64,000 nucleotides of DNA. Source: Leucobacter insecticola. Its GTDB lineage: Bacteria > Actinomycetota > Actinomycetes > Actinomycetales > Microbacteriaceae. Below the pieces are notes generated by a model that searched no databases, was not told the DNA's origin, and was given only the letters and a program-made list of their open reading frames with translations. Shown piece by piece: positions 6,748 to 37,181 of this stretch (position 1 is the first letter of the stretch; each line of letters opens with the position of its first letter). The translations under genes were made by a program, and so were the position numbers. The stretch lies in NCBI RefSeq assembly GCF_011382965.1, contig NZ_CP049934.1, positions 248,001-312,000 of the forward strand, in the 5' to 3' direction.

Positions 6748-8514
6748 ATGTCGCGTATTCGTAAAGTGCTCGTCGCCAACCGCGGTGAGATCGCCGTCCG
6801 CATTATCCGTGCCGCCGCAGACAGCGGCATTGCCTCCGTCGCCGTGTACGCGGATCAGGATCGGGATGCCATGCACGCCCAGCTCGCTGACGAGGCCTAT
6901 GCCCTCGGCGGTAGCACCAGCGCCGAAACCTACCTGGTGATCGACAAGATCCTGGCCGTGGCAAGGCGTTCCGGCGCTGATGCCGTGCACCCGGGCTACG
7001 GCTTTCTCGCCGAGAACGCGGACTTCGCTCGCGCCGTTGTTGCGGCAGGACTCACCTGGATCGGGCCGAGCGCCGAGGCGATCGAACGACTCGGAGACAA
7101 AGTGTCGGCGCGCCACGTCGCCGAGAAGGTCAATGCACCACTCGCACCGGGCACCAGCGATCCCGTTAAGGACGCATCCGAGGTCATCGCCTTTGCTGAC
7201 GAGCACGGTCTGCCCGTCGCGATCAAGGCCGCGTTTGGCGGCGGCGGCCGCGGCCTCAAGGTCGCCTACGAGCGTGACGAGATCGCAGAACTCTTCGATT
7301 CGGCCACCCGTGAGGCGATCACCGCGTTCGGACGTGGCGAGTGCTTCGTCGAGAAATACCTAGAGAAGCCGCGCCACGTTGAGACCCAGTGCCTCGCTGA
7401 CCAGCATGGAAACGTTGTCGTCATCTCAACTCGCGACTGTTCACTGCAGCGCCGCCACCAGAAGCTCGTGGAGGAGGCGCCCGCGCCGTTCCTCACCGAT
7501 GAGCAGAACGCCGAACTGTACCGCGCTTCGAAGGCAATTCTCCGCGAGGTCGGTTACGTGGGTGCTGGTACCTGCGAGTTCCTCGTTGCGCTCGATGGCA
7601 CCGTTTCATTCCTCGAGGTGAACACCCGCCTGCAGGTCGAGCACCCAGTGTCCGAAGAGATCACCGGCATCGATCTGGTGCGCGAACAGTTCCGCATCGC
7701 CGAGGGCGGGGCTATCGACTACGCGGATCCGGTCGCCCACGGGCACTCATTCGAGTTCAGGCTCAACGGTGAGGATCCCGGCAACGGCTTTCTGCCTGCC
7801 CCCGGCCCCGTCACCCTGTTCAAGGCGGCGTCAGGCCCCGGCGTGCGCGTCGATACGGGCGTCACCTCGGGCGACGTCGTTTCCGGTTCTTTCGATTCGC
7901 TGCTCGGCAAGCTCATTGTCACCGGTGCCACCCGCGAGCAAGCGCTCGAGCGCGCCCGCCGCGCCCTCGACGAGTTTGAAGTGATCGGGCTTCCCACCGT
8001 GCTCCCGTTCCACCGCAAGATCGTGCGCGATCCCGCGTTCACCGCCACCGACGGCCGCTTTGGCGTCTACACGCTCTGGATCGAGAACGAGTTCGAGAAC
8101 AACATCGAGCCGTGGGTGGGTGAGGTTGAACAGCTCAGCGCCGATCCGAAGCGCCAGAATGTGGTGGTCGAGGTTGCCGGCCGTCGCGTCGAGGTCACCA
8201 TGCCCGCAACGCTGCTGCCCCTCGTCGACCAGGAGGTCACCCGCGGCCCCGCCCCGAAGCGGGCCAAGGGATCCGGGACCGCCTCCGCAACGGGCGACTC
8301 AGTCTCTGCCCCCATGCAGGCAACCGTAGTGAAGGTCGCGGTTGAAGACGGCCAGGCCGTCGCAGAGGGCGACCTCGTCGTGGTGCTTGAGGCAATGAAG
8401 ATGGAACAGTCGATCTACGCCCACCGCGACGGTGTGGTGAATGGCATCGACGCACCGGTCGGGCAGACGGTGCCCAACGGTCACCTGTTGCTGTCGATCG
8501 TTGACGCGGAGTAG
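6748..8514 (+). CDS. accA3: Acyl-CoA carboxylase alpha subunit (biotin carboxylase + BCCP)
   Basis: 588 residues from the ATG at 6748 ([19 protein letters not shown]). The N-terminal biotin carboxylase N-domain is followed by ATP-grasp (FGGGGRGLK near residue 170, [15 protein letters not shown] near 295) and a C-terminal biotinyl domain with EAMKMEQ, whose Lys is the biotin attachment site. It carboxylates biotin with ATP and bicarbonate for transfer to acetyl- or propionyl-CoA by separate beta subunits, feeding fatty-acid synthesis. The upstream in-frame ATG at 6697 is rejected because the family begins at the chosen start and a leaderless -10 box precedes it. No beta subunit is in the window. 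Confidence 0.93.
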
Positions 8515-8548
8515 CGTGCCCCGAGTTCCCGCAGCCGGGCTCCAATAA

Positions 8549-8642
8549 GACGAGCGTCCCCCAACCCGACGAGCGTCCCCCATTTCGACGGTTTCCACAA
8601 CGTGGGTTTGGGGAACACTCGTCGGTTTGGGGGACATTCGTC
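8549..8642. repeat. Composite palindromic repeat of 19-bp units
   Basis: The left arm (8549-8581) is a tandem of GACGAGCGTCCCCCAACCC and a near-copy. The right arm (8610-8642) is the inverted counterpart (GGGGAACACTCGTC then GGTTTGGGGGACATTCGTC). The arms match with a few substitutions around a 28-bp centre. It lies between the convergent accA3 and Eis-like genes and could form a long hairpin in both transcripts. No T-tract follows, so it is not a canonical terminator. Confidence 0.8.
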
Positions 8643-8666
8643 ATTTCGCGCCGTCCGAGCGAGCCG

Positions 8667-9950
8667 CTATAGAATCCAGTTCGCCCCGGCCGCAACCGGC
8701 CACGACCACGCGGTCGCAGCGCGCGCAAGGGCGGCGGGTCTGTGCACTTCGACCAAGCCCGCCTGCGCAAGGGCCGCGAGCGAGACCGTTCCCAGGTGCG
8801 CAGCGCCAAGCTCCCGCACATCGAGGGTGAAGTCAGGATCCACATCGCTCGGCGTTACCTCCGCGGCCCCTTCCGTATTGACGCGTACTCGCCACAGCCC
8901 GGCATTCTCTGGGATCAGCTCGTCACGCACACCGACCACCACGTCAAGTGGCGCCGCGTATCGTCGCTCGGCGAGGGCGCGCGGCACATCAATGAGTCGT
9001 AGCCAGTGCAGATCATGAGTGACGGGCTTCGCGGCGCGTGCGTCAACAAGCAACGACAGAATCGGGTCATCGATGGGGAGGAGCGAGGCATCCACTCGTG
9101 AGGTGAGATCCAAATCCAACAGAATCGACCACAGCAGGTGCGTAGCCGCCGGATCAAGCGCAACGATGTCGCGCAGGATCACAACACCCTCGGCGTTATC
9201 GCGATCCCACACGGGCTTTCGGCGGAAGCGTGCATAGCCGCGGGCCGCGCCGCTCGCATCGCGCACGATGAGCACGCGAAGCGCTTCGAGCCCGTGACGC
9301 CTGACGGGAGCGTCTTCGTCGCAAGACTCTCGAAGCTCTGGCGTCTCCCAGGTCACCCAGCCGGGCCGACCGATCCCCTCGGGCAGCCGTGCGACGTCCC
9401 GGTGCAGCCGCGCGATCTCGTCACCGTGCAGCGCCGGGTCCCAGATATGCATCTCCGGTGTCAGCGCTTCGCTCCCCGCAACAACTCGGAGCGCCGCCCC
9501 GCGTGGCACGGTGAGCGACATCTGCGGAGTTGCCGCACCGTAGCCGAAGCGGCCATAGATTCCCGCCTCAGCCGCGGCAAGGCCGGAGACCGCCTCACCG
9601 CGTTCCCGGCAATCATTGAAGTGGTGCATCATCATCGACCGCAGTAGGCCCCGGCGGCGATGCGCTGGGTGCACTGCAACCCAGGTGAGCCAGCCACAGG
9701 CGACCTCCGCGCCCGGCACGGGGAAGGCGCGGAGGGTGTGCGCCCCGTACATGCCAGAGAGTTCCGACGAGGCGCTTGAGTCACGAGCTTCAACACCCCA
9801 GAACCGCCCCCACGGGATCGCGTGTTGCAGTCGCAAGAGATCGTCAAACGGGATCTCCATGGGGAACGCCCACGCGTCGAGCCGCAGCGCGTCCTCCAGT
9901 CGGTTCTCGGGATCGAGCAGGGTCAGGCTGTAGTTCTCTGAGAAGCTCAC
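8667..9950 (-). CDS. Eis-like GNAT N-acetyltransferase
   Basis: About 427 residues from the GTG at 9950. The N-terminal GNAT domain contains VAVHPAHRRRGLLRSMM, the acetyl-CoA pyrophosphate-binding loop V-x-P-x-x-R-x-x-G-x-x. A second degenerate GNAT fold and a C-terminal SCP2-like domain follow, ending in a free carboxylate at NWIL. This is the three-part layout of the mycobacterial Eis family (about 400 residues), which acetylates amines on aminoglycosides, peptides or small molecules. The GTG is preferred to the more distal starts because GATACT lies 6 nt before it and family members begin here. It is transcribed alone, convergent with accA3. Confidence 0.85.
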   Translation of the reverse strand: MSFSENYSLTLLDPENRLEDALRLDAWAFPMEIPFDDLLRLQHAIPWGRFWGVEARDSSASSELSGMYGAHTLRAFPVPGAEVACGWLTWVAVHPAHRRRGLLRSMMMHHFNDCRERGEAVSGLAAAEAGIYGRFGYGAATPQMSLTVPRGAALRVVAGSEALTPEMHIWDPALHGDEIARLHRDVARLPEGIGRPGWVTWETPELRESCDEDAPVRRHGLEALRVLIVRDASGAARGYARFRRKPVWDRDNAEGVVILRDIVALDPAATHLLWSILLDLDLTSRVDASLLPIDDPILSLLVDARAAKPVTHDLHWLRLIDVPRALAERRYAAPLDVVVGVRDELIPENAGLWRVRVNTEGAAEVTPSDVDPDFTLDVRELGAAHLGTVSLAALAQAGLVEVHRPAALARAATAWSWPVAAGANWIL

Positions 9951-27333: not shown

Positions 27334-29301
27334 TCAGGGGGACAGCACGATCTTGTTTGCCGGGCCAAGCCGTTTGCCGTCTGCGGACTGGTATCGCACG
27401 CTCAAGACGGCGTGGTTGCTCTCCGGGTAGAGATCAAACGCCTCGCCGACAAAAAAGATTCTCATCTCATTCACGGCCTTTGACACCTCGATGGAATGGG
27501 AGATCCCGCTCTCGCCCTGGCTGAGAAGGATCGCGCGACCCGGGATCGCTGTAACGCTCAGGTCAAATACACCCTCGGTGGTCACCGTTGCCGTGCCCTC
27601 TGGCGCGAATAGCTCAAATGTTTCCTCAACCGTAGGCGATGTCCTCAACAGGAACCGGTCGCTGGCCCATACCGTGAGAGTGTTTGCGCCGACGACGGCA
27701 CCGGCATCGAGCTGCGCCTTCCAACTGCCGTCAAGCCCGACCGGCGTGCTCATCACGGTGTCATTGAGTCGCGCAATGACCGAAGACCCGGGGGTGCCTG
27801 TTCCGCTAATGGTCGGCGGGAGCGTGCCGTCCGCCGTGTCAATCGAGGTGATGGCAGGGATGAGTTCTGGCTGGGTTAACCGGAAGTCAAATTCAGTACT
27901 GCTCACCGAAGAGCGACGTCCGCTCTCGTCAACCTGGTAGGCGCGCAGCGTGTGCGATCCGAGCCTCGCAACATTTACCTCTGCACGCCAGTGTCCATTG
28001 GGCTCCGCCACGACACTTACGACACGGTTCTCAGGCGTTGCAGCAGAAAGGAACAGCGTTACTGTTGCATCAGCGAGCGCTGTACCCTCGACTGCGGCAA
28101 TCGTTGACCTCTCACCGCTGTTGCTGACGGACGTGAACTTGGGAGCCGGCGGCAGTAACACCGACTCGTCGAGCGTCATTCCCGAACCACCTGCGGCTGA
28201 GCCATTCTCGTCCGATGCAGAGCGGCCATCCTCCGTTCCTAAATCCCCCTGATCCGTGGGCGTTGTTCTATCCCCGGCGGTGTCTGGGTTAGGGGTTGCA
28301 GAACGCGGAGATACGGGGATCTCTGTCTCGGCTACGGGCGTCTGCTGGAAGTTCCCCACCGCAACAACGCCGGCCGTCAATAGGGACGCCGCAAGCACCC
28401 CGGTAACCACCTTGGTCGTTACTGACCCCCAGACGCTCACCACCGCCGGCTTCAAGATAATCTGCTCAGCGACGGCCGCATTCACAGCCTCGGGAGTCAA
28501 CGCTTTGAAGGCGAGCGGCGCTACGCTTCCGCCGGCGAGGAGGCTCGGGATCAAAGCCGACTTGAGCTGACTTGCGAGCGCACTCGCGTCTTGTGAGGCG
28601 CGCGAGCACGTCGAGCACGTTGCCAGATGGGCCTTTACTTGTTTCGCGTCTTGCGGGCGCAGCCCGCCTCGGGCGAAGGCGGGCAATCGCTCGATGGTCC
28701 TCTTACAGTCGAGGGAGCCGCCCGTCGCCCCGAGGTTCTCGGTGATCCAGGCCCGTTTGAGACCCTCTCGCGCTCGAAACACCAGTGCCGACAACGCGTT
28801 CGGGTTCAGGTGCATCTCCTCGCTCAGCTCAGCGTTGCGGGCCCCAAAGACTTCCGACTGCCACAACACGTGCTGCCAACGCTCCGGCAATGATTCAAAG
28901 GCCCGCCGCAGCATCACTTTTTCCAGACTTGCGTCGGAGAAATCCTCAACCCAATCGTGTGGCGATGGCGCATCTTCATAACCATCGATACTTACTTCGG
29001 TGGGAGCAAGCGCTCGTTTAGTGACGATATTCCTCACCGTGCTCACAAGATAGGCACGAAAGTTTGTTGTTGGACCTCCCCCGTTTCGCATCTGCCGAAA
29101 CACTTGCGCGAAAGCTTCAGCCGCGATGTCTTCATGGTCCATCTGCGTGGTAAACATACGCGCGGCGTTGAGCGCCGCCTGACGATACCGCAGCCACAAC
29201 TCCCCAAACGCAGCATCGTCGCCACCACGCACGCGTGCGAGAAGCTCGATTTCTTCTTGCCGTGCCTGATCTTTAGGCGCTCCCATACTAAGAGTGCTCA
29301 T
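27334..29301 (-). CDS. Membrane-tethered ECF sigma factor with zinc-finger anti-sigma module and Ig-like ectodomain
   Basis: 655 residues in four parts. Residues 20-95 are sigma region 2 (MDHEDIAAEAFAQVFRQM) and 130-185 are region 4 (ESLPERWQHVLWQSEVFG then an HTH). Residues 199-232 form a zinc-binding anti-sigma motif with C199, H225, C229 and C232 (HLATCSTC). A single membrane helix follows at about 295-316. After a Ser/Thr/Pro-rich linker the extracellular part has at least two Ig-like modules (for example PTISGTGTPGSSVIARLND...GSWKAQLDA). The start at 29301 has GGAG 8 nt upstream. A sigma factor tethered to the membrane with its own anti-sigma should need proteolytic release or a conformational signal. 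Divergent orientation beside the giant adhesin suggests that gene is its target (inference). Confidence 0.85.
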   Translation of the reverse strand: MSTLSMGAPKDQARQEEIELLARVRGGDDAAFGELWLRYRQAALNAARMFTTQMDHEDIAAEAFAQVFRQMRNGGGPTTNFRAYLVSTVRNIVTKRALAPTEVSIDGYEDAPSPHDWVEDFSDASLEKVMLRRAFESLPERWQHVLWQSEVFGARNAELSEEMHLNPNALSALVFRAREGLKRAWITENLGATGGSLDCKRTIERLPAFARGGLRPQDAKQVKAHLATCSTCSRASQDASALASQLKSALIPSLLAGGSVAPLAFKALTPEAVNAAVAEQIILKPAVVSVWGSVTTKVVTGVLAASLLTAGVVAVGNFQQTPVAETEIPVSPRSATPNPDTAGDRTTPTDQGDLGTEDGRSASDENGSAAGGSGMTLDESVLLPPAPKFTSVSNSGERSTIAAVEGTALADATVTLFLSAATPENRVVSVVAEPNGHWRAEVNVARLGSHTLRAYQVDESGRRSSVSSTEFDFRLTQPELIPAITSIDTADGTLPPTISGTGTPGSSVIARLNDTVMSTPVGLDGSWKAQLDAGAVVGANTLTVWASDRFLLRTSPTVEETFELFAPEGTATVTTEGVFDLSVTAIPGRAILLSQGESGISHSIEVSKAVNEMRIFFVGEAFDLYPESNHAVLSVRYQSADGKRLGPANKIVLSP

Positions 29302-29789
29302 CAGACAGACTCCGATCCCCACGGTTGCTATTCACAGATCGACCCAGCATGGATCCTGCTACAAGCCCCAGAAACATATGCGTATTTACGAATAGTCCCA
29401 CAGTCGTCCCCCAACGAATTCTGCCGCACATTGCAGCCAAGAGTCGGTATACCGCTATGACAAACTCCCAGAAAGCGCTGGTAAAGTTATGTGATGCGGT
29501 GCGTTAACTGGCCGTGCGCCTTTGCGATAAAACGCAAAGTTCGAGTTCATCCTTAACGACATCTTATCAAGATGCAAACTTGGTTGACCTTATCGCGTGA
29601 GAAGTATTTTTGCGGCGTGTCGCAAAATTCTTATTTTCCTACGTAAGATTCAGCTTCAAATTGACTCTGAATATCCGAGGCGACAAATGTCTGCCTTAGC
29701 AACTCATAGCACTTTCTTGCTGCGCGCTGCCTCCTGGCCGTGCGCATGCGCAGCAAGAAAGTGTGAAGAACGAAGGGGGCAACGTTTCA
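29302..29789. other. Divergent control region of sigma-Ig gene and adhesin
   Basis: 488 bp, more AT-rich than its surroundings. It holds no convincing gene. It contains TTTGCG-N6-CGCAAA (about 29522-29539) and the long hairpin at 29710-29763. A TTGACC with a TATTTT 15 bp on (29584-29610) is a weak promoter candidate for the adhesin; I could not recognise an ECF-type promoter. Confidence 0.5.
29710..29763 (+). promoter_or_regulatory. Leader hairpin just upstream of the adhesin start
   Basis: A perfect 16-bp inverted repeat, CACTTTCTTGCTGCGC at 29710-29725 and its complement at 29748-29763, with a 22-nt loop. It ends about 10 nt before the purine-rich GAAGGGGG ribosome-binding site. In the mRNA it would form a very stable stem just 5' of the start region. 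No U-run follows, so it is not a standard terminator; control of translation or mRNA stability is an inference. Confidence 0.65.
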
Positions 29790-32700
29790 GTGTCACTCAT
29801 AAAGATCGCGCGAACATCGCGCATAACTGGCAGTCCGAGGGGGAGCAGTCAAAACTTGCTACGCCCCCTCGCCATGCTTGCGACCGCAGTAGTCGCGTTC
29901 ACTGGCCTCTCGCAGGCATCAGCTCCAAATGCGGAGGCAGTGACCTCTGTGAAGCAGAACTTCATCACCATCGATGCCCCCAATCCAGTGAGGCTAGTCT
30001 CGCTCTACAGCCACTACGAAATGAATTCGCAGTTCGCGAAGGGCGTCGCCTGGGCCGCAAATGGCGGAAACCGTGAATTTAAGACGACCGTCGTAGACCT
30101 CGATACTGGCCTCTCCGTGCCAGTTCCCGGGGCGGGCCTGGACGCGACAAGCAGCATCGGTCAGAGCTACGGTGGTACCGGCACTGGCAAGGACCCATAC
30201 TTTGTTCAGAGCTCCCGCCCCTTTACAGGCGCGTACTCAAACCTAACTCTCACCGCCAAACAAACAGTGGTGCTCGGCCAGCCGTACTTCCGCACGGACC
30301 TGACGATCACCAACAACGGCCTCACCCCCAAGAACATGCAGTGGGGCTCCTATGGCCAGTGCCAATCCCCTGGTGGAAGCATTTGGTCCACGATCGAACC
30401 CGGCCGCCTCGTGAAGTGCTACGGCACGGGCTTTGAGACCTCGTTTATTCCACTCGATAACGAGGTGTCCTTCGTCGCGGGCAATTATCTCCCTATCCGC
30501 AATCTGGTAACCAAACCCATCGTCGGCACAGACAACGCAAATGCCTGTTGGGTAACCGACACAACCAAGGGCACCTGTGGCACAGGATCCGGCGGCCAGT
30601 CAATGGGTGTCTTCTGGGGTCAAGAAATTCCGGCTAGTAGTTCCGTAACACACTCCTTCCTGACCGCGATGGTTGACACCATTGAGTTTGCCCACTTGGT
30701 GCCGGAAGCAACCGTTTCCCCTGCCCAGGTAGGTGTCGGTGGACAAACCACCTACACGTTGAAAATGACAAATCAGGGACCTGACAACGCCTCGAACAAC
30801 GTCATGACCTACAAGCTGCCGGCGGGCATGACCGTAGTCGGGACGCCCTCCGGAGATGGCACCTACAATGCGGCTACCGGCACGTGGACCGTTCCCGCTA
30901 TTGCGGCTGGCACGACGGCGACGATCAACATTGCCGCCAGCGCGGCCGCTGCCGGAAGCTACTCGACCACGATCACGAACCTGGTCACCGGGTCGATTGA
31001 CCGGAATCCCTGCACGGATGATGACTCGTGCGGCGGCGCTACCACCGTGACGGTCGCCGATCAAGGTGTCGGCAGCACGTCGAGCATCGCGGCGAACCCT
31101 GCCACCGTCGAGTTGAAAGACGCGACCACCTCAACCATCACCGTGACCGCGAAGAAGGCAGACGGCACACCCGCTGGGGTTGGCGGCGCTACCGTTACGA
31201 TGAACACGAACCTCGGTACGCTCTCGGGTGTTACTGACAACCTTGACGGAACGTATACGGCAACACTGACCTCAACCACGGCCGGACTCGCGACCGTGAA
31301 TTTCACGTTGAACGGCGCAGCTGGTGCTGCGCCAGCGACAGTGCAGTTTAACGCTGGTCCTCCTGTCTTCACGTCTGATGCTGCCGGTTATTCCGTGTCG
31401 ACTGGTACTGTGCCGGTGCGTTCAGAGCACACCGTTACCGTGTCACTTCTTGACGTATACAACAACCCCATTGTGGGAGCGGAAGATCGCCTCGAGGCGT
31501 TCATGCCTGATCGCGGTCAGGGCACCATCTCGGGCTTTAGCCCCGTGAACGCGACTCTGAACCCGGGTGTTTATGCGGCGAAGGTCACCTCAACGGTGTC
31601 TGGCACGAAGACCGTCACGGTCAAGCTTGACGGCTCGATCGATGTTCCTCTCGTCGTAGATGGAAACACCTACGCCGAGTTCGGTCCTGGCGCAACTGAT
31701 CTAACGAACACGAACTCGAAGTTCAGTGTTTCCACGGGCACTAAGAAAGTGGGTTCGGGCACGCACACCGTGACCGTCCAGCTCGCGGACGCAGACGGCA
31801 ACCCCATCCGCAATGCTCAGCTGACCCCCACGTCAGACAAGAGTCTGGGTGACGGCGGATTTGGTTCCTTTGTCGAAGATACCGACGATCCAGGCACCTA
31901 CACTGCGACAATCTCTTCGACCATTGCCGGCGACATGACGATCTCCGTCGCGCTCAATGGCGTGGGACCGGTGAATGCGCGCGGTGGAAACACCGTGGCC
32001 AAGTTTGAGGCCGCTGAGGTTGACCTCACCGATCTCGGTACGGGATTCTCGGTGACCACCGGACCCCAGTCAACGGACGACGGCTCGCACACTGCCACGA
32101 TCCTGCTGAACGACGAGTACGGCAACCCCGTCACGCTGACCGCCGATGAGCTGGCAACACTGATCGCGGTTGCGATGCCCTCTGCGGGTGTCACCGTGAG
32201 CGAAGTTGAAGCCGATGCAGCAACTGCGGGCAAGTACACTGCGACGATCACCTCAACCAAGACCGGCGACAAGCAGGTTTCGGTGACGCTGGGTGGTCAG
32301 ACGGTTGTGGCTCGCGGCAACGACATCGCGGCGTTCACGCACGGTGGGCCTGCAGTCACGAATGGTGCGACGAGCTTTGAGGTTTCCACCGGTGATGCTG
32401 TCGCCGGAAGCGAGACACACACGCTGTCGATTTCCGTCGCTGACGCGGGTGGAAACGGCGTTCTCGGTCTCACCGCTGGTGCATTCTTGCCGACGGCGGA
32501 TCCTGCCCCCGGAGTATCGTTCTCCGACTTTGAGGATCTCGGGAACGGTAAGTACCAGTTCACAATCGCTTCGACTCAGGCGGGCGTAAAGACGGTTTCT
32601 GTCACGATTGGTGGCGGCAGCGTCGAGGTTGCCGAAAACAAGTCGGCAACCGCAAGCTTCGTCGCCGACGAGGCAGCGGTTTCAAACCCGAACGCGGTGA

Positions 32701-35700
32701 ACTTCAGCGTGTCTACGGGCCCGAAGCTCGCCGACGGGGTTGAAACGCACACCATCACCGTGAGACTGCAGGACGCAAACGGCAACGCCGTTCGCGACGC
32801 CGCGGCAGATCTCAGTGCTGCAACCGTGATCCAAGACGCCATCGGCGACGGCGAGATCGGCGAATTCACCGAGCTGACTCCGGGCATCTACACCGCAACG
32901 ATCAGTTCGACGGTCGCAGACACGTTCGAGTTGAAGGTGCTGTACGGCACAGAGCTCGTATCGCTGAAACCGGTTGACGGGAACGCGTCCGCACAGTTTG
33001 TCGCTGGCGCGCCAACGAAGGGCACCTCCGCGATCGTGGTGAGCCCCGTGCGGGTACAGGCCAACGGCGTTTCGTCCGCGACTGCCACCGTGACGTTGAA
33101 GGACGCCAAGGGCAACACGATCACCAACGTTCCCGTTGGCACCACCGTGACCGGAAAGACCAACCTCGGAGTTGCTGGTTCTGTCACGCAGAACCCGGAT
33201 GGCACGTTCACCTTCCAGGTGTCCTCGGACGAGGAAGGAACCGCGACAGTCGGGTTCAAGCTCAACAATGTTGATGCGGACGCAACCGACGAGGTCGAGT
33301 TTGTGACGGTATCGTCACCGACGGTCGACTACGCGAACGCGTCAACAGTGGTCGGCTCCGGGATCCCCGGGGAGACGATTGAGGTCCGTGACAACTCGGG
33401 CACCCTCATCGGCTCTGGCACGGTCGGCACCAACGGCAAGTTCAATGTGACGTTGACGACCCCGGCAGCCGACGGGGATACGCTGAAGGTCACCTCGGTG
33501 GACGGCAACGGCTTCATTTCGGAGCCGACGTTGGTGAAGGTCGACGCGATTGCTCCTGACGCACCCGTGGTTGACCCGTCGAACGGTTCCAAGGTCACCG
33601 GCGAAGCCGAGCCCGGCTCAACCGTCGTCGTGAAAGACGGCAACGGAACCGAGCTCTGCCGCGCAACCGCGGATCCGGAGGATGGCACCTTCGAGTGTGT
33701 CCCGAACCCCACCCCGGGCAACGGCGACACGATCAAGGTCACCGCGACCGACCCGTCAGGCAATACCTCGGACGAGACCACGGTCACGATCGATACGATC
33801 GCTCCTGACGCACCCGTGGTTGACCCGTCGAACGGTTCCAAGGTCACCGGCGAAGCCGAGCCCGGCTCGACGGTCGTCGTCAAGGACAAGGATGACAACG
33901 TCCTGTGCAAGACGACCGCAGATCCCACCGATGGCACCTTCGAGTGTGTCCCGAACCCGAAGCCCGGTCAGGACGACGAGCTGAAGATCACGGCAACCGA
34001 CCCCTCAGGAAACACCTCTGAGGAGACCACCGTCACGATCAACCAGAAAGCGCCCAACGCGCCCCAGGTTGACCCGTCCAACGGATCCAAGGTCACCGGT
34101 TCCGCCCAGCCCGGCTCAACCGTCATTGTGAAAGACAACGACGGAACCGAGCTGTGCCGCGCAACCGCGGACGCCGAAGACGGCACCTTCGAGTGTGTCC
34201 CGAACCCCGCCCCGGGCAACGGCGACACCATCAAGGTCACCGCAACCGACAAGGAATCGAACGAATCAGATCCGACCACGGTCACGATCGATACGATCGC
34301 TCCCGAAGCACCCGTGGTCGACCCGTCGAACGGTTCCAAGGTCACCGGCGAAGCCGAGCCCGGCTCAACCGTCGTCGTGAAAGACGGCAACGGAACCGAG
34401 CTCTGCCGCGCAACCGCGGATCCGGAGGATGGCACCTTCGAGTGTGTCCCGAACCCCACCCCGGGCAACGGCGACACGATCAAGGTCACCGCGACCGACC
34501 CGTCAGGCAACACTTCGGACGAGACCACGGTCACGATCGATACGATCGCTCCTGACGCACCCGTGGTTGACCCGTCGAACGGTTCCAAGGTCACCGGCGA
34601 AGCCGAGCCCGGCTCGACGGTCGTCGTCAAGGACAAGGATGACAACGTCCTGTGCAAGACGACCGCAGATCCCACCGATGGCACCTTCGAGTGTGTCCCG
34701 AACCCGAAGCCCGGTCAGGACGACGAGCTGAAGATCACGGCAACCGACCCCTCAGGAAACACCTCTGAGGAGACCACCGTCACGATCAACCAGAAAGCGC
34801 CCAACGCGCCCCAGGTTGACCCGTCCAACGGATCCAAGGTCACCGGTTCCGCCCAGCCCGGCTCAACCGTCATTGTGAAAGACAACGACGGAACCGAGCT
34901 GTGCCGCGCAACCGCGGACGCCGAAGACGGCACCTTCGAGTGTGTCCCGAACCCCGCCCCGGGCAACGGCGACACCATCAAGGTCACCGCAACCGACAAG
35001 GAATCGAACGAATCAGATCCGACCACGGTCACGATCGATACGATCGCTCCCGAAGCACCCGTGGTCGACCCGTCGAACGGTTCCAAGGTCACCGGCGAAG
35101 CCGAGCCCGATTCGAAGGTCACAGTCAAAGACAAGGATGACAACGTCCTGTGTGAAGCTGTTGCCGGACCTGACGGCAAGTTCGAATGTGTCCCGAACCC
35201 GAAGCCCGGTCAGGACGACGAGCTGAAGATCACGGCAACCGACCCCTCAGGAAACACCTCTGAGGAGACCACCGTCACGATCAACCAGAAAGCGCCCAAC
35301 GCGCCCCAGGTTGACCCGTCCAACGGATCCAAGGTCACCGGTTCCGCCCAGCCCGGCTCAACCGTCATTGTGAAAGACAACGACGGAACCGAGCTGTGCC
35401 GCGCAACCGCGGACGCCGAAGACGGCACCTTCGAGTGTGTCCCGAACCCCGCCCCGGGCAACGGCGACACCATCAAGGTCACCGCAACCGACAAGGAATC
35501 GAACGAATCAGATCCGACCACGGTCACGATCGATACGATCGCTCCTGACGCACCCGTGGTTGACCCGTCGAACGGTTCCAAGGTCACCGGCGAAGCCGAG
35601 CCCGGCTCGACGGTCGTCGTCAAGGACAAGGATGACAACGTCCTGTGCAAGACGACCGCAGATCCCACCGATGGCACCTTCGAGTGTGTCCCGAACCCGA

Positions 35701-37181
35701 AGCCCGGTCAGGACGACGAGCTGAAGATCACGGCAACCGACCCCTCAGGAAACACCTCTGAGGAGACCACCGTCACGATCAACCAGAAAGCGCCCAACGC
35801 GCCCCAGGTTGACCCGTCCAACGGATCCAAGGTCACCGGTTCCGCCCAGCCCGGCTCAACCGTCATTGTGAAAGACAACGACGGAACCGAGCTGTGCCGC
35901 GCAACCGCGGACGCCGAAGACGGCACCTTCGAGTGTGTCCCGAACCCCGCCCCGGGCAACGGCGACACCATCAAGGTCACCGCAACCGACAAGGAATCGA
36001 ACGAATCAGATCCGACCACGGTCACGATCGATACGATCGCTCCCGAAGCACCCGTGGTCGACCCGTCGAACGGTTCCAAGGTCACCGGCGAAGCCGAGCC
36101 CGATTCGAAGGTCACAGTCAAAGACAAGGATGACAACGTCCTGTGTGAAGCTGTTGCCGGACCTGACGGCAAGTTCGAATGTGTCCCGAACCCGAAGCCC
36201 GGTCAGGACGACGAGCTGAAGATCACGGCAACCGACCCCTCAGGAAACACCTCTGAGGAGACCACCGTCACGATCGATCAGACACTTCCCGATACACCGG
36301 TCATTGACCTGTCGAACGGCAAGACCGTCACCGGTGGCACTATCGCAGAAGGAAACACCCTGGTGTTTGTTGACGCGAACGGTAAGACCGTCCCCGGCAC
36401 GATCGTGATCGATGAAAACGGTCGTTTCACCTTCACACCGACGACCCCTCTCACCGAGGAGGACAAGGTGGAGGCCGTTGTGACAACGCCGGCCGGCAAC
36501 TTCGCAAAGGCACCTGTGAAGGTGAAGACCCATGCACCTGATGCGCCGAAGATCGACACGGTCGACGGCAACAAGGTGACGGGTTGCGCGGAAGCAGGTT
36601 CAACCGTGGTGGTCCGTGATGGCGATGGCAAGATCATCGGCAGCGCGGTTGTTGGAGACGACTGCCGCTACACCATCGAGTTCGAAACGCCGCAGAAGCC
36701 GGGATCCTCGATCACGGTAGACGCAACCGACGGCGCAGGAAACGTCTCAGACAAGGCTGAACGAACCATTGGCGAGCTTGCCATCGTGCTCGAATCTGCC
36801 CAGCTCGAAGCAGGCTCGAAGCAGGTTGCTTACGGCTACGGCTTCCTGCCGGGCGAGAAGGTGAGCGGGGTGCTCCGCTCGACTCCCGTGTCGCTCGGGG
36901 ATCAGATCGCTGACGCAGACGGCAACGTCGTGTTCAGCTTCGCGATTCCCGCCGACATGGAAATCGGTATGCACTCTGTCACCCTGACCGGGGCGACCAG
37001 CGGATCGGTGAAGGCCGAGTTTGAGGTCATCGCCGTCGCTGCAGAGACGGTTCCGGCACCGGGCCTCGCGGTAACCGGCGCAGACCTTGTCCTGCCCATC
37101 TCTGTTGGAATCCTCCTGCTTGGCGCTGGCATCATTCTTGGTGCCGCACGTCGACGCAAGCACGCAGAGGAGGTCGCCTAG
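29790..37181 (+). CDS. Giant LAxTG-anchored repeat adhesin
   Basis: About 2463 residues from a GTG at 29790, preferred over GTG 29763, which lies in the hairpin arm and lacks a ribosome-binding site. Signal peptide: basic N-terminus, LLRPLAMLATAVVAFTGLSQASA. An N-terminal unique domain (about 50-300) is followed by a DUF11-type module (about 300-405) and seven invasin-like Ig modules (about 424-1170), most sharing an FSVSTG strand. One divergent Big-type module precedes eleven near-identical 82-83-residue Ig modules (1255-2165). Each of these begins APxAPxVDPSNGSKVTG and carries two Cys. Two more divergent modules and a terminal domain precede LAVTG (2426-2430), a membrane helix and RRRKH, a class E sortase signal. 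It should be covalently attached to the cell wall and mediate adhesion. Divergent from the sigma-Ig protein. Confidence 0.88.
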   Translation: MSLIKIARTSRITGSPRGSSQNLLRPLAMLATAVVAFTGLSQASAPNAEAVTSVKQNFITIDAPNPVRLVSLYSHYEMNSQFAKGVAWAANGGNREFKTTVVDLDTGLSVPVPGAGLDATSSIGQSYGGTGTGKDPYFVQSSRPFTGAYSNLTLTAKQTVVLGQPYFRTDLTITNNGLTPKNMQWGSYGQCQSPGGSIWSTIEPGRLVKCYGTGFETSFIPLDNEVSFVAGNYLPIRNLVTKPIVGTDNANACWVTDTTKGTCGTGSGGQSMGVFWGQEIPASSSVTHSFLTAMVDTIEFAHLVPEATVSPAQVGVGGQTTYTLKMTNQGPDNASNNVMTYKLPAGMTVVGTPSGDGTYNAATGTWTVPAIAAGTTATINIAASAAAAGSYSTTITNLVTGSIDRNPCTDDDSCGGATTVTVADQGVGSTSSIAANPATVELKDATTSTITVTAKKADGTPAGVGGATVTMNTNLGTLSGVTDNLDGTYTATLTSTTAGLATVNFTLNGAAGAAPATVQFNAGPPVFTSDAAGYSVSTGTVPVRSEHTVTVSLLDVYNNPIVGAEDRLEAFMPDRGQGTISGFSPVNATLNPGVYAAKVTSTVSGTKTVTVKLDGSIDVPLVVDGNTYAEFGPGATDLTNTNSKFSVSTGTKKVGSGTHTVTVQLADADGNPIRNAQLTPTSDKSLGDGGFGSFVEDTDDPGTYTATISSTIAGDMTISVALNGVGPVNARGGNTVAKFEAAEVDLTDLGTGFSVTTGPQSTDDGSHTATILLNDEYGNPVTLTADELATLIAVAMPSAGVTVSEVEADAATAGKYTATITSTKTGDKQVSVTLGGQTVVARGNDIAAFTHGGPAVTNGATSFEVSTGDAVAGSETHTLSISVADAGGNGVLGLTAGAFLPTADPAPGVSFSDFEDLGNGKYQFTIASTQAGVKTVSVTIGGGSVEVAENKSATASFVADEAAVSNPNAVNFSVSTGPKLADGVETHTITVRLQDANGNAVRDAAADLSAATVIQDAIGDGEIGEFTELTPGIYTATISSTVADTFELKVLYGTELVSLKPVDGNASAQFVAGAPTKGTSAIVVSPVRVQANGVSSATATVTLKDAKGNTITNVPVGTTVTGKTNLGVAGSVTQNPDGTFTFQVSSDEEGTATVGFKLNNVDADATDEVEFVTVSSPTVDYANASTVVGSGIPGETIEVRDNSGTLIGSGTVGTNGKFNVTLTTPAADGDTLKVTSVDGNGFISEPTLVKVDAIAPDAPVVDPSNGSKVTGEAEPGSTVVVKDGNGTELCRATADPEDGTFECVPNPTPGNGDTIKVTATDPSGNTSDETTVTIDTIAPDAPVVDPSNGSKVTGEAEPGSTVVVKDKDDNVLCKTTADPTDGTFECVPNPKPGQDDELKITATDPSGNTSEETTVTINQKAPNAPQVDPSNGSKVTGSAQPGSTVIVKDNDGTELCRATADAEDGTFECVPNPAPGNGDTIKVTATDKESNESDPTTVTIDTIAPEAPVVDPSNGSKVTGEAEPGSTVVVKDGNGTELCRATADPEDGTFECVPNPTPGNGDTIKVTATDPSGNTSDETTVTIDTIAPDAPVVDPSNGSKVTGEAEPGSTVVVKDKDDNVLCKTTADPTDGTFECVPNPKPGQDDELKITATDPSGNTSEETTVTINQKAPNAPQVDPSNGSKVTGSAQPGSTVIVKDNDGTELCRATADAEDGTFECVPNPAPGNGDTIKVTATDKESNESDPTTVTIDTIAPEAPVVDPSNGSKVTGEAEPDSKVTVKDKDDNVLCEAVAGPDGKFECVPNPKPGQDDELKITATDPSGNTSEETTVTINQKAPNAPQVDPSNGSKVTGSAQPGSTVIVKDNDGTELCRATADAEDGTFECVPNPAPGNGDTIKVTATDKESNESDPTTVTIDTIAPDAPVVDPSNGSKVTGEAEPGSTVVVKDKDDNVLCKTTADPTDGTFECVPNPKPGQDDELKITATDPSGNTSEETTVTINQKAPNAPQVDPSNGSKVTGSAQPGSTVIVKDNDGTELCRATADAEDGTFECVPNPAPGNGDTIKVTATDKESNESDPTTVTIDTIAPEAPVVDPSNGSKVTGEAEPDSKVTVKDKDDNVLCEAVAGPDGKFECVPNPKPGQDDELKITATDPSGNTSEETTVTIDQTLPDTPVIDLSNGKTVTGGTIAEGNTLVFVDANGKTVPGTIVIDENGRFTFTPTTPLTEEDKVEAVVTTPAGNFAKAPVKVKTHAPDAPKIDTVDGNKVTGCAEAGSTVVVRDGDGKIIGSAVVGDDCRYTIEFETPQKPGSSITVDATDGAGNVSDKAERTIGELAIVLESAQLEAGSKQVAYGYGFLPGEKVSGVLRSTPVSLGDQIADADGNVVFSFAIPADMEIGMHSVTLTGATSGSVKAEFEVIAVAAETVPAPGLAVTGADLVLPISVGILLLGAGIILGAARRRKHAEEVA
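33552..36284 (+). repeat. Array of eleven 246-249-bp tandem repeats inside the adhesin
   Basis: Nine units of 249 bp and two of 246 bp. Four unit types occur in the order A B C A B C D C B C D: A has DGNGTELCRATADPEDG, B has DKDDNVLCKTT, C starts QKAPNAPQ, and D has DSKVTVK and EAVAG. Copies of one type are almost identical in nucleotide sequence, so the array grew recently by unequal recombination of multi-unit blocks. Copy number could be wrong in a short-read assembly. Confidence 0.92.

Follow-up and report, generated by a model that had tools for sequence, protein, structure and literature searches.

A membrane-tethered ECF sigma factor encoded beside a giant Ig-repeat adhesin in Leucobacter insecticola

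Organization of the locus

The window analyzed herein is a stretch of 64,000 nucleotides from Leucobacter insecticola (contig NZ_CP049934.1, positions 248,001 to 312,000), within which a gene for a membrane-tethered ECF sigma factor lies divergent from a giant Ig-repeat adhesin gene. Their features, in window positions, are as follows.

27334..29322, minus strand: membrane-tethered ECF sigma factor gene (662 aa from GTG; 655 aa from the ATG at 29301)
29020..29190, minus strand: Sigma-70 region 2, residues 45-101 (Pfam PF04542)
28765..28914, minus strand: Sigma-70 region 4, residues 137-186 (Pfam PF08281)
28606..28707, minus strand: zinc anti-sigma motif C206-H232-C236-C239 (zf-HC2)
28348..28410, minus strand: membrane helix, residues 305-325, the only strong hydrophobic helix (hydropathy scan)
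28153..28347, minus strand: Thr/Gly/Ser/Asp/Pro-rich linker, residues 326-390, with 6 Pro in 65 residues (sequence)
27904..28152, minus strand: Ig-like module 1 (Big_6), residues 391-473 (Pfam)
27598..27861, minus strand: Ig-like module 2, residues 488-575 (profile from an eight-protein alignment)
27340..27615, minus strand: conserved C-terminal ectodomain module D3, residues 570-661, without a Pfam name (eight-protein alignment and profile)
29521..29538, no strand: dyad TTTGCG-N6-CGCAAA, copy 1, candidate operator (sequence)
29609..29626, no strand: dyad TTTGCG-N6-CGCAAA, copy 2, candidate operator (sequence)
29710..29763, plus strand: perfect 16-bp inverted repeat, a strong predicted hairpin in or just before the adhesin leader (sequence and folding)
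29763..37181, plus strand: giant Ig-repeat LAVTG adhesin, 2472 aa (ORF and Pfam)
33547..36319, plus strand: array of 249-bp units coding Big_6 modules, 11.2 copies (repeat analysis)
37065..37079, plus strand: LAVTG sorting motif, residues 2435-2439, followed by a hydrophobic helix and RRRK (sequence and anchor-tail alignment)

The adhesin may start at a GTG near 29790, which a purine-rich stretch precedes. Pfam assigned 14 Big_6 stretches, seven Invasin_D3 stretches and one DUF11 stretch to it, together with Big_1. Having an LxxTG motif, a helix and a basic tail at the C-terminus, the protein was classed as a sortase-anchored adhesin; Pfam PF00746 gave no match in it, and three sortase matches were found in the genome.

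Domain structure of the tethered sigma factor

In the protein scan, the sigma regions scored just below their Pfam cut-offs (22.1 bits against 24 for region 2, PF04542, and 24.4 bits against 25.7 for region 4_2, PF08281), while region 2 exceeded its cut-off in the whole-genome search (26.6 bits) and the cut-off of the NCBIfam sigma70-ECF model was passed (53.6 bits against 42.9). The region 3 family was absent from the Pfam matches, and the presence of regions 2 and 4 without region 3 identified the protein as an ECF factor. The zinc motif was recognized by zf-HC2 at 33.7 bits in the protein scan (cut-off 22.2) and at 38.7 bits in the genome search. Its four ligands were invariant in all eight aligned proteins, as were 27 positions of the sigma part; in the 655-residue count from the ATG they correspond to C199, H225, C229 and C232. 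The sigma regions and the zinc motif precede the single helix, and the linker and Ig-like modules follow it. A zinc motif C-terminal to the sigma regions and then one or two membrane helices is the layout of the fused zinc-anti-sigma ECF proteins, so that the protein is ECF48/52/53-like by layout. Both the ORF coordinates and the zinc residues given in the original prediction were correct, and its domain order, running from ECF sigma through zinc motif and helix to Ig ectodomain, was borne out by NCBIfam, zf-HC2, hydropathy and Big_6.

The fused layout itself is not new, since it is a published actinobacterial kind: the available portion of PMC8999054 describes it for ECF48, ECF52 and ECF53, and that of PMC5826349 reports on a studied ECF52 member, SCO4117 of Streptomyces coelicolor. 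The actinobacterial precedent to which the original prediction had appealed is thus a real one.

Module 1 of the ectodomain matched Big_6 at 30.4 bits (cut-off 27.6). Big_13 reached 27.3 bits (cut-off 27) when the ectodomain was scanned alone and 25.3 bits in the whole-protein scan, and NCBIfam Ca_tandemer fell just below its cut-off of 50 at module 2 (48.9 bits). The placement of modules 1, 2 and D3 relies on profiles from an alignment in which the window protein is itself one of the eight rows. At E 0.01, Pfam found only Big_6 and Big_13 in this ectodomain, and the carbohydrate-binding domain that is an ECF52 trait was absent. A further ECF52 trait is a long extension rich in proline, for which the linker of the window protein, with its 6 Pro in 65 residues, gives an ambiguous match. 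Ig-like modules thus occur in both the sigma protein and the adhesin, as had been proposed, with Big_6 in each, though the two are distant kin only: the best BLASTP match to the Ig modules of the adhesin had 24% identity (32 bits, E 1e-4), and phmmer at 1e-4 returned no match between them. A close kinship of the ectodomain with its own adhesin was rejected on these grounds.

Surface-gene neighbors across the family

Sigma homologues (E <= 1e-10) were detected in 95 of 249 genomes of the family, and a profile from the eight-protein alignment (E <= 1e-30) matched in 101 of 297 genomes of the order, the own genome being included in both counts. Apart from the window, the order-wide matches listed mostly span the first 300-400 of 658 profile positions. 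Up to four candidates were scored per genome and per-genome numbers are therefore lower bounds; five of the 95 genomes reached four. The scan of genome contigs with this profile gave 79 named loci, where an earlier scan had found no relative. We took 136 of the 138 match rows, dropping the row of the window itself and that of a short second fragment in genome G009, and extracted stretches of up to 20 kb around the loci, trimmed at overlaps and contig ends. With the window added, this made 137 sources, of which 134 held a sigma ORF and the other three were flank pieces. The sigma ORFs that reached 300 aa, 129 with the window included, formed the scored set, in stretches where gene calling was crude.

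Surface genes were assigned automatically, either by LxxTG, helix and basic tail or as phmmer kin of the window adhesin. By this rule a surface gene was the immediate neighbor of 17 of the 129 sigma genes, as against 60 of 1854 other genes of the same stretches (Fisher p 4e-6, a value that is too good because related loci are not independent, from a control made conservative by counting genes that flank these surface genes on their other side). The linkage is thus not random, and the remaining 112 of the 129 homologues had no adjacent surface gene by the rule. On the sigma tree, whose bootstrap is unsettled and in which several long branches meet, the adjacency label required 10 changes, where shuffled labels needed 16.2 on average and no shuffle of 500 gave so low a number. 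The linkage is seen in more than one part of the tree, and with Ig adhesins, other LxxTG proteins and pilins alike.

The original prediction had regarded the combination of an Ig ectodomain with an adhesin as the unusual part. Our survey does not bear this out: Ig-like modules, sought with profiles from the eight proteins and the adhesin repeats, were present in 83 of 125 ectodomains, namely in 8 of 17 with an adjacent surface gene and 75 of 108 without one (two-sided p 0.10). As they are so frequent without such a neighbor, what is special here is not the Ig ectodomain, which was also rejected as a predictor of a surface-gene neighbor. Pfam at E 0.01 found Big_13 in 32 and Big_6 in 32 of 124 ectodomains.

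Surface or pilus-type genes beside or near the sigma genes of L101, L047, L142, L163, L164 and L173 were noticed by eye; the rule missed them and they are uncounted. At L101 (8935-15876) the related sigma gene stands between an LPLTG protein and fiber-operon-like genes, which we take from a look at the sequence to resemble a TasA/SipW operon. The fused sigma genes of L047 and L142 appeared to lie near small clusters of pilin-like LPxTG genes and sortase-like ORFs. Locus L046 (5570-10961), from genome G096 of the same genus, has transposase-like ORFs after its related sigma gene; an ectodomain-like piece (8128-8823) lies beyond these ORFs, and next comes a convergent gene for a 753-aa protein whose tail, LATTG, is anchor-like.

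The full-ectodomain subgroup

A subgroup of eight proteins was defined by full-length coverage of the query including the ectodomain, without use of the neighbors; it consists of the window protein, three proteins in G003, one in G024 and three in G019 (Klugiella xanthotipulae). The D3 profile, built from these eight, scored 86-104 bits in the subgroup versus at most 18 bits in 13 other ectodomains. An Ig adhesin adjoins seven of the eight, whereas 10 of the 121 other homologues have a surface neighbor (Fisher p 1.4e-6). The adhesin is divergent in the window and in L040, L041 and L042, upstream on the same strand in both L044 genes and downstream on the same strand in L039; L043 has no Ig adhesin neighbor. 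Accordingly, the tie between sigma gene and adhesin gene that had been predicted is non-random, as the subgroup and four loci of the own genome attest, but the expectation that the adhesin is always divergent was not upheld (four divergent, three same-strand, one none). Homologues without an adhesin neighbor, which had been named in advance as evidence against the pairing, are the rule in the scored set at large (112 of 129) but not in this subgroup. The sigma tree groups the window protein with L046 and L101 (98/80), away from the other seven full-ectodomain proteins, and because of this grouping the ectodomain-defined subgroup lacks support as one sigma clade.

Fused sigma factors elsewhere in the genome

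Four fused sigma factors were found in the own genome, and an LxxTG gene adjoins each of them: the window pair is divergent, and at the other three loci (L050, L051 and L052) the LxxTG gene lies upstream on the same strand. A genome search with region 2 hit nine places, comprising the four fused sigma factors and frames of 441, 309, 201, 201 and 179 aa. Of these five frames, those of 441 aa, which is a primary-type sigma, and of 309 aa were inspected and showed no extension of the fused type. The genome search with zf-HC2 found the window protein, the L051 protein and a separate 91-aa frame, but not L050 or L052.

Since PF00746 misses all four partner genes (0 of 4), anchor genes were counted with our own anchor-tail profile. 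With 31 anchor-like matches and an assumed 2650 genes (about 2460 by scaling from the window), the chance that all three paralogues beyond the window adjoin an anchor gene was about 1e-5, or 9e-5 with 60 anchors assumed; the profile favors the partner genes because it was built partly from them. Overlapping ORFs in other frames precede the partner genes of L050 and L052, and broken genes or assembly indels are therefore possible there. The C-terminal ends of these two LxxTG genes are nearly identical, suggesting a recent duplication. The intergenic DNA of L050 and L052 contains what to the eye are hairpin-like stretches, and so does that of L162 and L165 in genome G017. The only M50 site-2-protease matches in the own genome (G000:C1:2760285-2761566) fall in three different open frames, and may represent either a broken gene or assembly indels.

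Upstream sequences and the intergenic region

The generic ECF consensus AAC-N15-18-CGTW was found upstream of the surface gene in none of 20 pairs (19 different genes), and it was not enriched upstream of the sigma genes (16 of 129, versus 110 of 570 control genes). This promoter test is a weak one, because the DNA before the starts of the L039, L050, L051 and L052 surface genes looks coding. When the upstream regions of sigma and surface gene were compared with each other (n = 19), only L040 and L042 exceeded all 150 controls, the L042 match being a single palindromic stretch read from either side. The element common to both L040 upstreams, GCGTCACGAAAC, is suggestive only. The window pair was equalled or bettered by 4% of controls.

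The two dyads of the window lie 88 bp apart and are two of only three exact copies in the 2.92-Mb genome, for a motif defined post hoc, after it had been noticed. A genome-wide dyad regulon was rejected, as the remaining exact copy falls within an ORF and copies with at most one mismatch numbered 15 against 13 for the control. The hairpin was unusually stable in both folding runs (z -3.44 with one of 200 shuffles as stable, and z -2.95 with none of 200). Its exact 16-mer occurs genome-wide only in these two arms, with four more sites at two mismatches, a count that rejects a dispersed element. Neither is it a conserved feature of such adhesins, being absent from eight other leaders (z -0.92 to 1.23).

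Comparison with known systems

Among the described proteins, SCO4117 is alike in being a single actinobacterial protein that runs from ECF sigma and zinc finger through a membrane region and a linker to an extracellular domain; for it, as for the window sigma, release by proteolysis has been proposed. In contrast, the available part of PMC5826349 presents SCO4117 as a pleiotropic regulator whose C-terminal end consists of a proline-rich stretch plus a carbohydrate-binding module, whereas the window sigma ends in Ig-like modules and its locus suggests a dedicated neighbor. In the accessible sections of PMC8999054, ECF48 and ECF53 are likewise extended at the C-terminus, by as many as 400 residues, with zinc-finger and membrane parts, and proteolytic release is expected for them with no experiment cited there; the window protein is likened to them by layout alone. 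The same sections describe IutY of Pseudomonas putida (ECF243), a sigma fused to a membrane anti-sigma part that is activated by proteolysis and by truncation; IutY serves iron-starvation cell-surface signaling in another phylum, and Ig modules are not mentioned for it in those sections (PMC8999054). Searches of the open-licence literature returned no paper on an ECF sigma with an adhesin in Microbacteriaceae, on one with LPXTG, or on sigma, pilin and sortase in Leucobacter, which is weak evidence; PMC13082335, found in a search on ECF sigma factors with pilus, sortase and anti-sigma, gave no description of such a pairing in its available portion.

The SigI/RsgI system of Clostridium thermocellum, in the account at hand, resembles the window locus in that several membrane anti-sigma paralogues act as sensors, RseP cleavage is reported and the target is extracellular machinery, the cellulosome; it differs in that RsgI is a separate anti-sigma factor and substrates are what is sensed. 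SigI is not known to be an ECF factor. To our knowledge, little is known about how actinobacteria decide on the timing with which they build giant surface adhesins and sortase pili.

Proposed mechanism and alternatives

On balance, we slightly favor the view that the window protein is a tethered ECF sigma factor dedicated to the neighboring surface protein and freed by proteolysis. At rest, regions 2 and 4 of the sigma part would be kept at the membrane in an inactive form by the helix together with the zinc anti-sigma segment. Proteolysis would be set off by a signal reaching the Ig1-Ig2-D3 ectodomain in the wall, such as the presence or assembly of the adhesin, tension or a shared ligand, and the freed cytosolic part would then transcribe the adjacent adhesin gene from its target promoter, and perhaps its own gene too. 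This reading draws on the linkage in seven of the eight subgroup members, the four loci of the own genome, the clustering on the tree, the kinship with pilins in Leucobacter described below, the three sortase matches, the domain order, the activation of IutY by truncation and the proteolysis expected for ECF48/52/53 (as far as the available text of PMC8999054 goes). Counting against it are the 112 of 129 homologues without a surface neighbor, the varied orientation, the absence of the consensus promoter in all 20 pairs, the M50 matches in three frames, an ectodomain not specially close to its own adhesin and a tree that splits the subgroup.

Several of these same points would fit a general envelope-stress sensor, whose Ig ectodomain monitors the wall and whose regulon lies elsewhere, the adhesin having become a neighbor by shared gain or hitch-hiking: 75 of the 83 fused sigmas with an Ig-like ectodomain lack a surface-gene neighbor, no ECF promoter was found at the surface genes of the 20 pairs, and orientation is not conserved. 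The recurrence of the linkage across parts of the tree and kinds of surface protein, and at four loci of one genome, argues against mere hitch-hiking, and we consider such a sensor clearly less probable, though a serious contender. The adhesin might instead be under the chief control of a different regulator that works through the dyads and the leader hairpin, with the sigma gene merely sharing the intergenic region. The closely spaced exact dyads, so rare in the genome, and the hairpin that no shuffle equalled in the second run point in this direction; the post hoc definition of the motif, the copy inside an ORF, the near-control number of mismatched copies and the eight leaders without such a hairpin make a chief role of this kind decidedly unlikely. 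Control through the dyads and a dedicated sigma factor are compatible, and both could hold. It is very improbable that the sigma domain has lost its RNA-polymerase function and that the protein is mainly a membrane-tethered Ig surface protein: the sub-threshold Pfam scores of the protein scan and a long end branch in the tree (1.79) would agree with such a loss, but region 2 passed its cut-off in the genome search, the ECF superfamily cut-off was passed as well, and the 27 sigma-part positions are invariant in all eight proteins.

The recurrent pairing of tethered sigma and surface genes, with several pairs in one genome, would give directly testable sensor-target pairs and offer a candidate route by which a cell senses the state of its own surface appendages. 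The relatives suggest that some tethered sigma factors are paired with the surface protein they probably control.

Pilin-like ectodomains in Leucobacter relatives

At L163 (9222-11039, genome G121) and L164 (9222-10979, genome G051), a sigma factor with a pilin-like ectodomain is encoded beside a pilin gene. The ectodomains match the neighboring 514-aa pilins at E 4e-54 (L163) and 3e-54 (L164), and that of L163 contains SpaA (25.9 bits, cut-off 23.1), its neighbor having pilin D1, SpaA and anchor domains. SpaA and the NF033902 pilin model were each found in 2 of 124 ectodomains. To the eye, without a domain call, the ectodomains of L156, L170 and L172 resemble DUF11-type modules, as do the neighbors of L156 and L172. 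The pilin-like and DUF11-like ectodomains suggest that the outside part can mirror the neighboring structure. We think it rather unlikely that these proteins form a switch family in which each ectodomain is of the same general build as a neighboring sortase-anchored structure whose state releases the sigma factor, with Ig modules next to Ig adhesins and, next to pilins, a pilin domain bearing a sortase-signal-like tail; in such a family, incorporation into the surface structure, contact with it or tension on it would free the sigma factor, leading to more structure. The sigma C-termini of L163 and L164 consist of LSMTG, a hydrophobic helix and basic residues, and a Leucobacter sigma factor with this apparent sortase signal could be covalently joined to the structure under its control. 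Seventeen proteins were matched, 15 of them close (P0121-P0135), of which six are named, all Leucobacter; an LxxTG-like motif, a hydrophobic stretch and basic residues stood at the end of all eight inspected among these 15 close relatives.
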